Part shown: piece by piece, positions 36,424 through 51,747 of the stretch
How positions within the stretch are numbered: position 1 is the first letter of the stretch
Layout: the number at the start of each line of letters is the position of its first letter
Assembly (NCBI GenBank): GCA_022824265.1
Contig: JAJEAG010000095.1
Coordinates: 1 to 51,747 of the forward strand
DNA from: Candidatus Poribacteria bacterium
GTDB taxonomy: Bacteria > Poribacteria > WGA-4E > WGA-3G
Length of the DNA stretch: 51,747 nt
Reading direction: 5' to 3'
The notes under the pieces: model-generated
Seen by the model: only the letters and a program-made list of their open reading frames with translations
Told to the model about the DNA's origin: nothing
Database searches by the model: none
Translations under genes and position numbers: made by a program

Positions 36424-36747
36424 TTATTTACCATTATACCTTAACGTTATGTTTCCAATAAATATACACTTTTTCTTACAAAATATCAAGATAAATATGA
36501 AGAGTATGTAGCAATCAGAATTTAGCATATAGTTGTTTCTTACGGAGTCATTCAATTGTTGATTTTTTTCGCTGAGTGGTTGTTCCGACCTGCAAGAGTT
36601 GGAAGATGTCCTGTTATGAATAGAATTGCTTCGAAAAAAACGCACTAAAAAAGGGTGTTTTTCGTACATTAGTGCGTTTTGGAATTCGGGTTTATGCCAG
36701 TCTGAAACTGAGTTTATAGGGTGGTACGATTTTTTTGATATTTTCAT
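36424..36747 (-). CDS. Doubtful hypothetical, 107 codons, upstream of the methyltransferase
   Basis: The first 40 residues look protein-like (YHPINSVSDWHKPEFQNALM, then YEKHPFLVRFFRS). The rest is low-complexity and ends in an Ile/Phe/Cys-rich run that is more likely non-coding. No family is recognised and the ribosome site is distant (AAAGG about 14 bases away). It could be the broken start of a gene lost when the restriction-modification pair arrived. Confidence 0.25.
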   Translation of the reverse strand: MKISKKSYHPINSVSDWHKPEFQNALMYEKHPFLVRFFRSNSIHNRTSSNSCRSEQPLSEKNQQLNDSVRNNYMLNSDCYILFIFILIFCKKKCIFIGNITLRYNGK

Positions 36748-36779
36748 TTTTGTGCGTTTTTCCTTTTCGGTATTTTTTC

Positions 36780-37030
36780 ATATTTAGTCGTTAGTTTGCA
36801 ATACACCTGTTGCCTCTCTGAGGCTTGGTGTCCTTGTGGTAGGGTCGCGTTTCGGAGATCGCTCCTACAGAATGTAATGTCCGAGGCGCAATGAATTGCG
36901 CGACTACGAACGCATCCGATATGCATTGTGTCAATACGGGCGGGGAAACCCCACCCCTACGATGGGCATGAGGTGACAAATGCAAATAGTCGCAATGAGT
37001 TGCGCGACTACGAACGCGTTTTTGAGTTAA
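36780..37030. repeat. Cluster of dispersed hairpin and REP-type repeats
   Basis: Within the 36373-37349 gap this stretch holds several repeat types. At 36875-36910 and 36985-37020 are two copies of a string with GCAATGA-ATTGC or GCAATGAGTTGC and the flank GCGACTACGAACGC. At 36938-36956 is a hairpin GGGCGGGG-AAA-CCCCACCC with one mismatch, followed by CTAC. A copy of the CCTCTCTGAGG type lies near 36812. The same units recur at 39.6-40.3 kb and beside the RAYT gene at 49.5-50.4 kb. No gene is seen. Confidence 0.75.
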
Positions 37031-37274
37031 TAAAAGTTTCATTTCGAAATGATGTTATAGTTTAACGGACTGTAGTTTGTGGTAAGTAGGTTATCAAGGA
37101 GGTGGAACAATATATATCCAATATGTTTTATGTGGGTTTTATTTTTAGTTGTCAGTTTGTTGTCTGAACCACGGAATATCTCTTAAAGGGTATGCTATAT
37201 ATTAGAAATGGAATAATTATGGCTTTACTATAATACGGGATAATTGAATACCTCTGTTTTATTTAAAATTTTAT

Positions 37275-37303
37275 TTGACAAAACACATTGACCGTGCTAA
37301 TAT
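37275..37303 (+). promoter_or_regulatory. Strong sigma-70-type promoter for the multicopper oxidase
   Basis: TTGACA (37275-37280), a 17-base spacer and TAATAT (37298-37303). A 9-base direct repeat, ATACATAAT, at 37302-37310 and 37314-37322 overlaps the -10 box and the expected start point, with 12-base spacing, and could bind a regulator. Confidence 0.6.
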
Positions 37304-39570: not shown

Positions 39571-39576
39571 GTAAGA

Positions 39577-40322
39577 ACATAGGTGTCAATTTAGTGAGGA
39601 ACATTTGTGCATCTGATACACCTTTCGCCCTGCTGGGGGCTTTAGTGTGCATGTCAAAGGTCGCTTCGCTCGCTCCGACCTACAGGACTATATGCGAGCA
39701 TGCGTGCGAGGAGACCGCGCCCCTACGGAATGTCCGAGGCGGAATGCATTGCGTAACTACGAACGCGTTTCCCCCTTAAATTGACGCTTATGGCAGAATG
39801 CGCGTTTGGCATTCTGCATTGGTTAGGAAACCGCACCATAAGCGTCAATTTAGTGTTCCGTTAGGGCATCTGATACACCTTTCGCCCCTCTGGGGCTTGC
39901 TATTAGAAGGATCAACGTTTACTATACACCTTTCGCCCCTCTGGGGCTTTAGTATGCCTGTTGTAGGTCGTTACCGCTCGCTCCGACCTACAAGACTGTA
40001 TGTGATACCATTTCTAATTGACAAATTGTCATAATGTATTGTAGGTCGAGTTGAGGAATGAAATCCGACAAGACACTATAAAAAGTCGGGTTTCGCTACC
40101 GCTTCTACCCGACCTACGAAATAATGTCCTGTTATCATATAGAAATGGTATGAGCATGCGGGCGAGGAGACCTCGCCCCTACGGAATGTCCGAGGCGCAA
40201 TGAATTGCGCGACTACGAACGCGTCCTTTGTTAATGAGAAACTATTATTTAGATATGCTATAAGAAGTGTAATCAACTACGCGACCTACGAACGCATCTC
40301 GTTCATAAATTGACGTTTTATT
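39577..40322. repeat. Dense repeat cluster between the iron transporter genes
   Basis: This 0.75-kb stretch splits the transport operon. It holds copies of a TTAAATTGACG-type end in both orientations (39581-39593, 39777-39791, 39838-39852, 40306-40315). Three copies of a CACCTTTCGCCC ... GGGGC hairpin lie near 39620, 39880 and 39930. A GGGCGAGG-AGA-CCTCGCCC hairpin is at 40160-40178, and REP-type strings with GCGCAATGAATTGCGCGAC near 39735 and 40195. A GTAGGTCG/CGACCTAC pair lies at about 40040-40130. Open frames here are repeat translations, not genes. Confidence 0.8.
39777..39852. mobile_element. 76-bp palindromic MITE-like element
   Basis: TAAATTGACGCTTAT (39777-39791) and ATAAGCGTCAATTTA (39838-39852) are 15-base perfect terminal inverted repeats. 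Between them lie a perfect 9-base hairpin (GCAGAATGC, GCATTCTGC) and a GGTTAGGAAACC hairpin of the dispersed family. A related end (TAAATTGACACCTTA) occurs singly at 3711-3725. Confidence 0.65.
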
Positions 40323-40344
40323 GTTTTGTGAGATATTGAGGTGA

Positions 40345-41956: not shown

Positions 41957-42050
41957 GCGGGATTATGATATTCTGTAATCAGTTGCGTGTGTTGATTGCA
42001 ACGGAAGACAGTTTACTGATATCTGAATTTTTAATATTGGAATATAGAAT

Positions 42051-47962: not shown

Positions 47963-48757
47963 ATGAAGTATGTTAATTTACTAATAATTGGACTACTTTT
48001 TATAGGGAATGTATATGCTGATAGTATTAAAGACGAACTTGAAAAATCACCGCGACATGGTGAGTGGGTTAAAATCACAGCTGCGGATGAGCATGCTATC
48101 AATGCTTTTATTGTATTTCCTGAAGTGAAAGAACCTGCAACGGCTATCATTGTTATACACGAGATTTTTGGCTTGACCGATTGGATTCGTCTTGTTGCAG
48201 ATAGACTTGCTGCGGACGGGTTTGTTGCTATTTGTCCAGACCTTTTGACTGGTTTGGGTCCTGATGGTGGTGGAACGGAGAGTTTCGCCTCTGGCGATGA
48301 TGTGCGACGTGCAATCCGTAATCTATCCAAAGAACGCGTGAATACTGACCTTGATGCAGTCCGCAAATATGTCAGTGATTTACCATCAACGAATGATAAG
48401 GTTGCGGTATCTGGTTTCTGTTGGGGTGGTGCTCGGACATTTCAATATGCTGTTCATTCTGATGAGATCGTTGGTGCATTTGTGTTTTACGGTTCGGCAC
48501 CTTCAGTAGATGATATACCTAAAATTTCTGTGCCTGTCTACGGGTTCTATGGTGAAAACGATAATCGGATTAATGCGACAATTGATGCTACCAAAGAAGC
48601 CGCGGATGCCGCTGAGGTTACATATCAACCTGTTATTTATGAAGAGGTAGGACACGGGTTTTTACGGAGAGGTATGGCGGATGATGCAAGTGATACACAG
48701 AAAGCTGCTGTCAAATCGGCGTGGGAACGGTGGATTAAGCTTTTAGGTGAACTATAA
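47963..48757 (+). CDS. Exported dienelactone hydrolase-family protein
   Basis: GGAG lies seven bases before the ATG. The 264-residue product has a signal peptide (about 4-19, YADS) and an alpha/beta-hydrolase fold with the family's Cys nucleophile C153 in GFCWGG, D200 (YGENDNR) and H231 (GHGF). Dienelactone hydrolases open lactones in chlorocatechol breakdown, but this broad family includes many carboxylesterases, and an exported copy is unlikely to be the catabolic enzyme. The neighbouring SDR starts 13 bases after its stop. Confidence 0.9.
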   Translation: MKYVNLLIIGLLFIGNVYADSIKDELEKSPRHGEWVKITAADEHAINAFIVFPEVKEPATAIIVIHEIFGLTDWIRLVADRLAADGFVAICPDLLTGLGPDGGGTESFASGDDVRRAIRNLSKERVNTDLDAVRKYVSDLPSTNDKVAVSGFCWGGARTFQYAVHSDEIVGAFVFYGSAPSVDDIPKISVPVYGFYGENDNRINATIDATKEAADAAEVTYQPVIYEEVGHGFLRRGMADDASDTQKAAVKSAWERWIKLLGEL

Positions 48758-48770
48758 ACAGGGAACACAC

Positions 48771-49535
48771 ATGGCAAACCGACTAAAAGATAAGATTGCA
48801 ATTGTTACTGGTGCCGCGCGAGGGATTGGTGCGAAAAGTGCTGAACTCTTTGCGGCAGAAGGTGCATCTGTTGCTATCTGGGACTTGAACGAGGAACGCG
48901 GCAAACAGACCGCTCAACAGATACAAGACAAAGGCGGCACTGCGATTTTCTGTAAGTGCGATGTTACGGATTCAGAGCAGATAGAAAAAGCAACACAACG
49001 GGTTACATCAGAACTTGGAACTCCGAATGTGCTGTTTAATAATGCTGGTATCGCTGTCGTTGGAGAATTGGAACATATTTCTGAAGCGGATTGGGATCGA
49101 CAGTATGCTGTGAACGTAAAGAGCATCTATCTCGTCTCACGGTCAATTATTCCGTTGATGCGTACTGCGGGTGGCGGTTCAATTATCAATATGGGAAGTG
49201 AATCAGCATTTGTTGGTTTTCCCATGCATCCTGCCTATACCTCCTCCAAGGCAGCAGTGGTTCATCTCACTCGGAGCATGGCTGTTCGTTATGCTGAGGA
49301 TAATATCCGTGTAAATAGTCTGTGTCCGGGTACGATTAATACCGAACTGTATCAGGAATTTATTGCACAACAAGCGGATCCGGAAGCAGTGAATAGAGAG
49401 ATTGATGAGATGCATCCGTTAGGTATCGGTGAACCGGTTGATATTGCTTGGGCGGCGGTTTATTTGGCATCTGATGAGTCTCGGTATATGACGGGTGCAC
49501 CGATGCTTGTTGAGGGTGGGATATTGTCAATGTAA
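48771..49535 (+). CDS. Short-chain dehydrogenase/reductase (classical SDR)
   Basis: ATG at 48771 is chosen for AGGGAA seven bases upstream; an ATG at 48747 lies inside the preceding gene. The 254-residue product has TGAARGIG (the nucleotide loop, about 13-20), the NNAG motif near 90, the catalytic Ser in NMGSESAF near 142, and Y-x3-K in YTSSK near 156. SLCPGTINTELY near 184 completes the fold. The substrate is unassigned (many are 3-oxoacyl or sugar alcohol dehydrogenases). Its stop codon sits inside a 30-base palindrome. Confidence 0.92.
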   Translation: MANRLKDKIAIVTGAARGIGAKSAELFAAEGASVAIWDLNEERGKQTAQQIQDKGGTAIFCKCDVTDSEQIEKATQRVTSELGTPNVLFNNAGIAVVGELEHISEADWDRQYAVNVKSIYLVSRSIIPLMRTAGGGSIINMGSESAFVGFPMHPAYTSSKAAVVHLTRSMAVRYAEDNIRVNSLCPGTINTELYQEFIAQQADPEAVNREIDEMHPLGIGEPVDIAWAAVYLASDESRYMTGAPMLVEGGILSM

Positions 49536-49561
49536 GAGGCGCAATTCATTGCGCCTCTTAC
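49532..49561. repeat. Perfect REP-type palindrome upstream of the RAYT gene
   Basis: GTAAGAGGCGCAAT (49532-49545), spacer TC, ATTGCGCCTCTTAC (49548-49561). The 14-base arms are perfect. It overlaps the SDR stop codon and could act as a transcription-ending or message-stabilising hairpin. The core GGCGCAAT recurs in the array downstream of the transposase gene. Confidence 0.85.
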
Positions 49562-49652
49562 ATTCGTAAACAAAATGAATGAAGATGTATCGTTATCGTA
49601 AACTTACCCCTATTAAAAAACAGAAACTATTAGACAGAGACATTTGAGAGGT

Positions 49653-50174
49653 ATGCCAAACCATAGACCACCGCGTTTTGGAAACTTCAGCGGATTTTTC
49701 CTGATAACCGCGTCTACTTATGAACATAAATCATATTTTAACAACGTTGAAAAGCGAACATGGTTATACAATGAACTACAAAGAGAATTACAGAATGCCC
49801 AAATTCCTATTAGTGGATGGGTGGTATTACCGAATCATTACCACTTGTTAGTAGAATGTAATCCACTTTTATCAATTAGTCTACCATTGCGGAGCGTTCA
49901 TGCCCGTAGTGCGCGTGAATTGAATCGTCGCGATGGAGTGTCTGGTCGTAAAGTTTGGTATCTTTTCAGCGATCGGCAAATTCGCAATGAATCTCATTAT
50001 TACACAACGCTAAACTATCTTCACTACAATCCGACAAAACATGGTTATGTTGAAAAACCATTAAACTGGAAATGTTCAAGTTTACATTGGTACGAAAAGC
50101 ATTTTGGAATAGATTGGTTACGGGATCTGTGGCAAAAATACCCTGTACTCGATTATGGTAAGGGTTGGGATTGA
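49653..50174 (+). CDS. REP-associated tyrosine transposase (RAYT, Y1/HUH type), 5' end frameshifted
   Basis: From ATG 49653 the product has 173 residues with the Y1 transposase fold: FFLITASTYEHKSYF (15-29), the metal-binding PNHYHLLVE (60-68, HUH-type H62 and H64), SDRQIRNESHYYTTLNYLHY (106-125, containing the catalytic Tyr) and NPTKHGYV. A conserved RAYT-like N-terminus (MYRYRKLTPIKK) is found at 49585 in another frame and stops at 49645-49647. One extra A in the A6 run (49615-49620) would join the two frames. The HUH domain is complete even without that end, so activity is possible. The gene is bracketed by the palindromes it may act on. Confidence 0.88.
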   Translation: MPNHRPPRFGNFSGFFLITASTYEHKSYFNNVEKRTWLYNELQRELQNAQIPISGWVVLPNHYHLLVECNPLLSISLPLRSVHARSARELNRRDGVSGRKVWYLFSDRQIRNESHYYTTLNYLHYNPTKHGYVEKPLNWKCSSLHWYEKHFGIDWLRDLWQKYPVLDYGKGWD

Positions 50175-50228
50175 TAGGTTTGTAGGATTAAGGTATTTAG
50201 TATATGTGGTGTATGAACTAAAAATATA

Positions 50229-50407
50229 ATGTAAGAGGCGCAATTCATTGCGCGACTACAAACGAATGTAAGAGAATATGGATTGTGCTTATATAAACGG
50301 ATATAAAAGGCACGTGGATTGCCCAACTACAAATGGATGTAAGAGACTATGTATTTTGCTTGTATAAACGGATGTAAGAGGCGCGTGAATTGCGCGACTA
50401 CAAACAC
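50229..50407. repeat. Tandem REP array (five units, alternating A-B-A-B-A)
   Basis: Units start at 50229, 50266, 50301, 50337 and 50372, each 35-37 bases and beginning ATGTAAGAG or ATATAAAAG. Units 1, 3 and 5 hold a short palindrome (GCGCAATTCATTGCGC in unit 1) and end ACTACAAA. Units 2 and 4 are AT-rich and end TATAAACGG. The A-B pair therefore repeats every 71-72 bases. The array lies directly downstream of the RAYT gene, matching the known pairing of such transposases with REP clusters. Confidence 0.8.
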
Positions 50408-50430: not shown

Positions 50431-51366
50431 CTACAGGGCATGATCAGAGGGTTTGAGACCCTTCTTATATGTGCCAAAACCGAAGAAGGTTGGATCATAA
50501 TTGCCGACATAATCAACATTACTTTCATCAGGAATAAGATCTTCCATCTCCATGCCCCAAAAACATCCGTTAACAAGCAGACGGCGAAGTCCTTCGCTCT
50601 CTAAATCAACTGATGCACCCATCGTAGTATTAAAGACACGTGAGGTGTTCCCCGTATCACCAGTATAGGTTTTGATCCATGCCATCGGCATTGTGACAGT
50701 ATCCGGTTTGGGTGGATCTGTGGGTTCCATTCCAACGAGGACCTGTCCGTGCACTAATACCTGAGAGTCTCCCGTTAGTTCCTTTATACCGTAAACATCT
50801 GAAGGTCCCCATATATCTGTAACGCCTTTAAGAATAGGGTGACCTTTGTTTTCCTCGTCAATAACGCCACGTGCACTTTCTTTGCCGTGGTGTCCGTGAT
50901 GATTTATCCACGTTTCTCCGAGCACTTGCCTACCGTATCCACCTTCAAAATCTTTATTGTTGAAACTATATTTTGCATAAGGACTATCCTGATTTCGTGT
51001 ATAGTTGAATGCGTGTGTGGCAGTGCGTAAACCCATCACAGGTTTGCCAGCGTTGGTATAGTCTACAATATACTTCATCTGTTCATCTGGCAGCTCTCGG
51101 AATCGTGTGAACAGCACCATCATATCCGCTTCTTCAAGGTTCTGTAATCCCGGTATGTTTGTTTGGTTTGTCGGATCAATTTCACCGGTATCGGGATTAA
51201 TTGCAAATAGCACGGTACATCGGAAACCGTGGTGTACTGCTAAAATCTTTCCTAACATCGGACATGCTTCTTCGGAACGATATTCTTCGTCCCCGCTGAC
51301 TAATACAATATGTTTGCCGTTGCCGACTCCATGATTTCCATCATATACAACCCATTCATTATTCAT
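50431..51366 (-). CDS. ThuA-like domain protein, long form
   Basis: The start at 51366 is preferred because GGAG lies ten bases upstream; an ATG at 51387 lacks one. The 311-residue product opens EWVVYDGNHGVGNGKHIVLV, with a ThuA-like core: HIVLVSGDEEYRSEEACPML (about 19-38), ADMMVLFTRFRELPDEQMKY (about 79-98), VMGLRTATHAF (about 109-119) and NGCFWGMEME near the C-terminus. An HHGHHGKE segment (about 157-164) may bind metal. There is no signal peptide. It is larger than the 204-residue ThuA-like protein at 15481-16095 and belongs to the form common in Planctomycetes and Poribacteria. Its role is presumed to be in sugar metabolism. Confidence 0.85.
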   Translation of the reverse strand: MNNEWVVYDGNHGVGNGKHIVLVSGDEEYRSEEACPMLGKILAVHHGFRCTVLFAINPDTGEIDPTNQTNIPGLQNLEEADMMVLFTRFRELPDEQMKYIVDYTNAGKPVMGLRTATHAFNYTRNQDSPYAKYSFNNKDFEGGYGRQVLGETWINHHGHHGKESARGVIDEENKGHPILKGVTDIWGPSDVYGIKELTGDSQVLVHGQVLVGMEPTDPPKPDTVTMPMAWIKTYTGDTGNTSRVFNTTMGASVDLESEGLRRLLVNGCFWGMEMEDLIPDESNVDYVGNYDPTFFGFGTYKKGLKPSDHAL

Positions 51367-51671
51367 CAAATATAAACTCCAGTTCATTAGATTTTATGTG
51401 TGCAGTATAGCACAATTTCTAAGAATTGTCAGGTTGAAAGTATTATTGTGTCATAATATAGGCTTATTTAGTTTCGGTTTTCCTAAGGGATTTGGCACAA
51501 ACGTGTATACTGATGTGTTGTCTGAATCAGAATTTTCAAGATTACAAAATTTTCAGGATAAGAGTTTGTCCATTCACATTTCTTTCAAAATAAGCAAAGC
51601 ATTCTTAAAACTATAGTGACCATCAGAATTAAAGAGACATTTTTTGTATTTTGTTATAGAATGTATCTATT
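51367..51671. other. Intergenic, nothing recognised
   Basis: About 305 AT-rich bases between the divergent ThuA-like gene and the IS630-type transposase. Open frames here have no ribosome site and no recognisable product. The left end of the IS630 element should fall inside it, but without the right end its terminal repeat cannot be identified. Confidence 0.5.
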
Positions 51672-51747
51672 ATGGCATATTCAACAGATTTACGTAAACG
51701 CGTTTTAGATTTTATTGAAGCTGGCGGGAAAAAAGCCGAAGCTGCCC
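51672..51747 (+). CDS. IS630-family transposase, N-terminal fragment (cut by window edge)
   Basis: Starts MAYSTDLRKRVLDFIEAGGK and continues KAEAA to the window end. This is the first helix-turn-helix of IS630-type transposases (AYS.DLR..V...I..G.S..EAA). Only 25 codons are visible, so the family is recognisable but integrity is not. Confidence 0.8.
   Translation, partial: MAYSTDLRKRVLDFIEAGGKKAEAA

Follow-up and report, generated by a model that had tools for sequence, protein, structure and literature searches.

Does the one RAYT (REP-associated tyrosine transposase) gene of a Poribacteria genome account for the REP repeats that lie beside it and throughout that genome? The gene is found in a stretch of 51,747 nucleotides, the whole of which we call the window, and which is contig 37 of the 4.45-Mb MAG (G000) of a sponge-symbiont-type bacterium. 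Proteobacteria, Cyanobacteria, Chloroflexi and the PVC group all have known GTAG REPs and RAYTs, and it has been noted that the repeats do not correlate strictly with RAYT genes (PMC3733652). In a study of pseudomonads, the exceptional REPs without a RAYT were attributed mostly to RAYT loss (PMC3686654), and REP abundance that tracks the cognate RAYT is a usual, not a universal, trait (PMC3686654, PMC3733652). In the current model REPs multiply only with an active cognate RAYT, and decay once the RAYT is lost. A sequence-only reading of the window had proposed that the gene may spread both the palindromes next to it and related units some distance away, in a lineage where REP biology was said to be little described. 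Our literature searches among open-licence papers found no work on Poribacteria REPs, and nothing direct on REPs inside MITEs.

The RAYT gene and its flanking repeats

The gene (49644..50174, plus strand) matches NF047646, the curated RAYT model, with 93.4 bits against a cut-off of 80 (E 1.2e-26), and PF01797, the Y1 transposase domain (E 6e-6), for which it is the sole match in the G000 genome. The only solved structure that matches is TnpAREP of E. coli (PDB 4er8; E 3e-6). These matches bear out the first identification of the Y1/HUH gene as a RAYT. The HYH motif (the HUH motif) and NYLHYNPTKHG, with the single catalytic tyrosine, are conserved in an alignment of the window protein, 20 relatives and TnpAREP. 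The neighbours are a short-chain dehydrogenase (SDR) gene at 48747-49535 and, on the opposite strand, a ThuA-like gene at 50431-51387. The last bases of the contig, 51672-51747, code for the beginning of an IS630-type transposase (PF01710, 3.6e-6); the assembly probably broke there because the element is repeated.

Is the gene intact? Its core is open over 176 amino acids, and the conserved reading frame reaches upstream as far as 49617. The conserved N-terminal segment, MYRYRKLTP... (49585..49620, plus strand), is not read in the frame of the remaining gene, and the two frames separate near a six-A run at 49615-49620. Relatives of the RAYT start MYxYRxLTPEQ... in a single frame; the ATG frame of the window gene ends after 20 codons. 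In a tree the window RAYT groups among Poribacteria RAYTs, where it has the longest end branch, 0.33 versus 0.03-0.18. Because the N-terminus is out of frame and the end branch is the longest, the gene may be decaying, though the frame break could instead be an assembly error in the A-run. Programmed frameshifting was considered and rejected: the frame-0 codons at the A-run form no canonical slippery heptamer, so that a one-base change or an assembly error is likelier.

The perfect palindrome reported ahead of the gene is present at 49529..49564, as 36 nt of the form AATGTAAGAGGCGCAAT-TC-ATTGCGCCTCTTACATT that consist of two REP tails with perfect arms of 17 bp. It folds as DNA at -17.8 kcal/mol (z -9.2), overlaps the SDR stop codon (49533-49535), and carries a REP tail on both sides with GTAG on neither strand, the tag being missing. 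Downstream, at 50229-50405, three A units of 35 nt are spaced 71 nt apart, with two B units between them. The five-unit A-B-A-B-A array described earlier is thus there in outline, but the B units are diverged, A2 is degenerate, and the loop of A1 is reversed relative to the dispersed units, reading TGAA from the GTAG where those read TTCA. All three A units have minus-strand orientation. A1 (50229..50263), with GTAG on that strand, and A3 (50371..50405) keep the CGACTAC end, and A2 (50300..50334) ends in CAACTAC. The core of A3, GGCGCGTRAATTG, is the unit common to the window and the sister species G033, at a site where G033 has no RAYT. GTAG is therefore borne by the units downstream of the window gene and is lacking from the palindrome upstream, whereas RAYT relatives are flanked on both sides.

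RAYT relatives in other phyla

Do the GTAG hairpins belong to the gene? We compared 80 homologous RAYT loci from Poribacteria, Planctomycetota, Verrucomicrobiota, Cyanobacteriota, Chloroflexota and others. A GTAG hairpin lies at most 400 nt from the RAYT in 54 of the 80 loci, and on both sides in 38, and the density of tagged hairpins is 3.47 per kb near RAYT homologues versus 0.14 per kb further away. The tag near RAYTs is almost constant (GTTC or GTTT, then GTAGT), and the stems vary, with 45 kinds seen. Since units picked by their perfect stems show pairing by construction, the association was tested from the tag alone, with no preselection of hairpins: a hairpin follows 154 of 253 GTTYGTAGT tags near RAYTs, versus 0.27% of shuffles. 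Because RAYT relatives in several phyla thus share the tag with changing stems, we regard the window gene and its GTAG hairpins as a genuine REP/RAYT pair, judging from sequence comparison.

Three RAYT-like genes of other members of the genus, L116 in G031, L118 in G036 and L121 in G041, are flanked by different GTAG hairpins (TGTAGGTCGGGT.., GGCGCGTTTxxAAACGCGCCTAC and GTAGGAGCGAGCTCCAGCTCGC), which suggests that several REP/RAYT systems coexist in the genus.

The REP family of G000

Read from its tag, the REP is GTTYGTAGTC-GCGCAA-TTCA-TTGCGC-CTC(TT/GG)ACATT, with a CT dinucleotide directly 3' of the stem. The sequence-only reading had called for a genome-wide collection of the repeats. In G000, GAGGCGCAATNNATTGCGC has 79 exact matches, with none for the reversed control, and GTAGTCGCGCAATNNATTGCGC has 119 matches (73 exact) when as many as 2 mismatches are allowed, again with none for the control. 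A 3-mismatch scan of the window gave 13 REP matches where 0.74 were expected, a number that none of 100 shuffles reached. Only one of 53 copies lies within an ORF, although ORFs make up 80% of the sampled sequence. As a tagged palindrome of 20-40 nt that is extragenic and present in 119 copies, the repeat has the properties of GTAG-class REPs.

The related units noted earlier at 36.9, 37.0, 39.7 and 40.2 kb are real members of this 119-copy family. All are on the minus strand: two have the exact core (36886..36907 and 40195..40216), one has 2 mismatches (36990..37011) and one 3 (39739..39760). Dispersed and RAYT-flanking REPs are alike in tag, stem, loop and tail (CTCTTACATT/CTCGGACATT).

The intergenic blocks that hold the dispersed units, at 36525-37275 and 39571-40330 (about 750 nt each), consist of many short repeat modules. 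G043 lacks both blocks, with about 20 nt instead, and G033 lacks the second, which surrounds the unit at 40195..40216; such intergenic repeat mosaics grow or shrink as whole blocks. At 39700-39760 and 40165-40216 two kinds of REP form a composite, in which the REP described here often has another GTAG hairpin (GGACATTCCGTAGGGGCGAGGTCTCCTCGCCC) next to it in head-to-tail order.

Repeats and RAYTs within the genus

Does the number of repeats follow the gene? The genomes compared are MAGs, most of them 81-97% complete, from which a repeat-flanked RAYT is easily lost at contig ends; G046 is a single contig. A close, window-type RAYT occurs within the genus only in G000; none of the 17 congeners has one. 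With at most 2 mismatches allowed, REP copies number 119 in G000 (73 exact), 227 in G040 (171), 222 in G036 (131), 116 in G045 (86), 74 in the one contig of G046 (24), 60 in G044 (34) and 36 in G030 (28); G043 carries 8, and no member of the family was found at this threshold in G031, G034, G037 or G042. Whether the number of repeats tracks the RAYT was a check named with the sequence-only reading. The counts in G040, G036, G045 and G046, which have no window-type gene, speak against it, and among related genomes neither the count nor the intactness of the REPs follows that gene. Repeats in relatives lacking any RAYT had been named as grounds for giving up the proposed link. For the window gene this is largely what was found, though other Y1/RAYT proteins are present in those genomes. 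The Y1 protein of G046 (C1:2314248) has no REP of the present family beside it.

How old are the insertions? Syntenic stretches were compared by BLAST chaining, a single contiguous alignment having given noisy gaps, and 13 REP sites of G000 were located in G040. Ten align through the REP position, one of these without a recognisable REP, so that about nine REP sites appear common to G000 and G040, and those REPs therefore predate the species split. The other located sites comprise one clean gain of a MITE with its REP in G000, one replaced block, and sites that reach contig ends.

The RAYT site itself differs between species. In G033 no RAYT lies between the SDR and ThuA-like genes, only a single degenerate REP, which overlaps the SDR stop with its tail. 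G000 has at this place the RAYT in a segment of 842 nt, at whose two ends a 13-nt stretch of the REP tail is directly repeated (ATGTAAGAGGCGC, at 49530..49542 and 50372..50384). The site in G043 has a relic of the palindrome, and that in G040 has none. The state of the G033 site is what one would expect after, or before, an exchange between the 13-nt repeats. The exact position of the RAYT segment at a REP, between two copies of a REP-tail repeat, suggests that it entered, or leaves, by exchange at REPs; the sequence fits gain and loss alike.

REPs carried by MITEs

If the window gene is not followed by the repeats, what else might carry them? The left arm TTTCTAAATAATAACTTCTCATTAAC is joined to a REP in all 18 sampled copies, and full elements have the form TA-ATACCATTTCTAA...REP...TTAGAATTGGTAT-TA, with right arms that differ and lengths that cluster at 112-114, 124-126 and 134-136 nt. 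In G000 both terminal inverted repeats (TIRs) are found around 14 of 70 REPs (20%), versus 25 of 4000 random positions, and at least one MITE end at 34 of 70 (49%), versus 194 of 4000. Proportions are similar in G040 (both TIRs at 6 of 38, at least one at 19 of 38) and G046 (6 and 15 of 30). For the remaining 36 of the 70 G000 REPs no TIR was found at the tested distances, and other routes of spread must therefore exist.

Insertions that differ between G000 and G040 are informative. A site that is empty in the window (42031..42033) is filled in G040 by a 139-nt MITE carrying the present REP, and conversely a MITE with this REP, of about 127 nt, lies in C4 of G000 where the G040 site is empty, and its TA is duplicated. 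Both of the cleanly resolved polymorphic insertions that carry this REP are therefore MITE+REP units; none is a bare REP. Given these presence/absence polymorphisms between sister species, we conclude from the sequences compared that the REPs spread at least partly as MITE passengers, independently of the window RAYT. REPs in RAYT-less sister species, together with the many copies inside MITEs, likewise argue that the window RAYT cannot be the only thing spreading them.

REPs belonging to more than one RAYT family appear to travel in these MITEs. Within a TIR element of the same MITE type in the window (TACCATTTCTAA...TAGAAATGGTA, 145 nt, 40006..40150), another GTAG repeat (TGTAGGTCGRGT) occurs as an inverted pair, and G040 has an element of this type, inserted at a TA, whose GTAG repeat pair likewise differs from the present REP. 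The REP, in turn, is found combined with several types of MITE arm and also in surroundings without TIRs, and copies outside MITEs adjoin other repeat modules, for example CCATAAGCGTCAATTT. This distribution indicates that the REP has at some time also moved or recombined between backgrounds on its own, as a RAYT would make it do. Exchange of one MITE right arm for another may take place at the REP. In a search for an autonomous partner of the MITEs, about 0.7 Mb of sampled sequence contained no TIR pair 0.7-2.2 kb apart that encloses a long ORF.

Origin and spread of the repeats

What combination of events accounts for these observations? We think it probable that the locus is a REPtron with a single-copy, probably degenerating RAYT between GTAG-tagged single-strand hairpins that belong to its own clade, and that the distribution of the REPs is not due to that RAYT alone, the REPs being partly MITE cargo. 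By analogy with TnpAREP work (PMC8266576), the RAYT would bind the single-stranded GTAG hairpin, cut at the adjacent CT and join the ends. The REP family probably goes back to earlier seeding by RAYTs of this lineage, and the REPs would have been largely in place before G000 split from its sister species, to persist and amplify in congeners without the window-type RAYT. Part of them now appears to ride in short MITEs with a TA target (TACCATTTCTAA...TTAGAATTGGTA), which would jump together with the REP as one unit, moved by a cut-and-paste transposase for which the TA duplication suggests the IS630/Tc1-mariner type. The RAYT segment itself would come in or go out by exchange at REPs. A bolder form of this proposal, in which REP hairpins captured by TA-target MITEs amplify today mainly as cargo, uncoupling REP copy number from the RAYT across the genus, is one that we hold evenly balanced.

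Could the classical REP/RAYT relationship suffice, with the window RAYT, or copies of it recently lost in congeners, spreading all the repeats, and with the REPs of RAYT-less genomes decaying? The identity of tag, stem, loop and tail in flanking and dispersed REPs is what such a relationship predicts, and this much of the proposal that the RAYT is the source of the dispersed repeats stands. REP abundance does usually follow the cognate RAYT, exceptions often being put down to RAYT loss (PMC3686654), and the G046 REPs are partly degraded, 24 of 74 being exact. Nevertheless, we consider this explanation unlikely. In G040, G045 and G030 the REPs are abundant and, with 171/227, 86/116 and 28/36 exact, more intact without the gene than those of G000 with it (73/119); neither clean polymorphic insertion is a bare REP; and the window RAYT gene itself looks damaged.

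More distant RAYT-like proteins of the congeners might act on the REPs in trans. Most congeners encode such NF047646-type proteins, and G040 has a different RAYT adjoining the same ThuA gene. That another RAYT subfamily is what mobilises the GTAGTC-GCGCAATTCATTGCGC REPs we nevertheless think quite improbable. The flanks of the other subfamilies in the genus, read by eye, hold GTAG repeats of different sequence, such as TGTAGGTCGGGT and GGCGCGTTTxxAAACGCGCCTAC. Moreover, such RAYTs occur in G031, G034 and G042, where no copy of the present REP was found, whereas G030 and G043, in which the NF047646-type family has no match, carry 36 and 8 REPs. A host role for the REPs (transcription termination or mRNA end protection, for example), with spread mainly by recombination or gene conversion and only a historical RAYT link, would suit their nearly exclusive intergenic position and the greater uniformity of core and tail than of MITE arms in G046, but is the least probable explanation, as several congeners have no REP copy, copies bear mobile-element ends and show clean insertion polymorphisms, and the uniformity of the core is partly imposed by the search pattern.

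If the REPs of this genus are indeed both RAYT-seeded and MITE-borne, REP counts would not measure RAYT activity unless copies carried by other elements were removed first. Because near-identical repeats occur in genomes of this genus that have the gene and in others that do not, and a second carrier has been pinpointed, comparison of sister genomes can separate the two routes.

Comparison with known systems

The Poribacteria REP/RAYT pair is a new member of the REPtrons, and GTTYGTAGT-tagged pairs are thereby extended to Poribacteria. With the RAYT/TnpAREP REPtrons of E. coli (TnpAREP, 4er8), Stenotrophomonas and Marinomonas it shares a single-copy Y1 HUH protein of the NF047646 type, GTAG-tagged hairpins with a perfect stem, a CT beside the stem, and intergenic high-copy repeats; its TTCA/TTTA loop resembles the TTTA loop of the Marinomonas REP (PMC8266576). 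It differs from those systems in its Poribacteria host, in the abundance and intactness of its repeats where sister species lack the gene, in the large share of repeats enclosed by TA-target MITEs, and in a gene that is probably frame-damaged. The 71-nt A-B-A-B-A array, and the inverted pairs at related RAYTs, recall the arrays and spacer-containing mosaics of REPINs and BIMEs, but the dispersed REPs here are mostly single, and are joined to MITE arms or other modules and not arranged as regular inverted doublets. MITE-borne REPs that uncouple copy number from the RAYT are a variant that we did not find described in open-licence papers. The carriers themselves, at about 110-145 nt, with TIRs, TA ends and clean presence/absence with TA duplication, are like the TA-target MITEs of the IS630/Tc1-mariner group, such as cyanobacterial Nezha, and differ from them in that their interior cargo is a RAYT-type REP hairpin.
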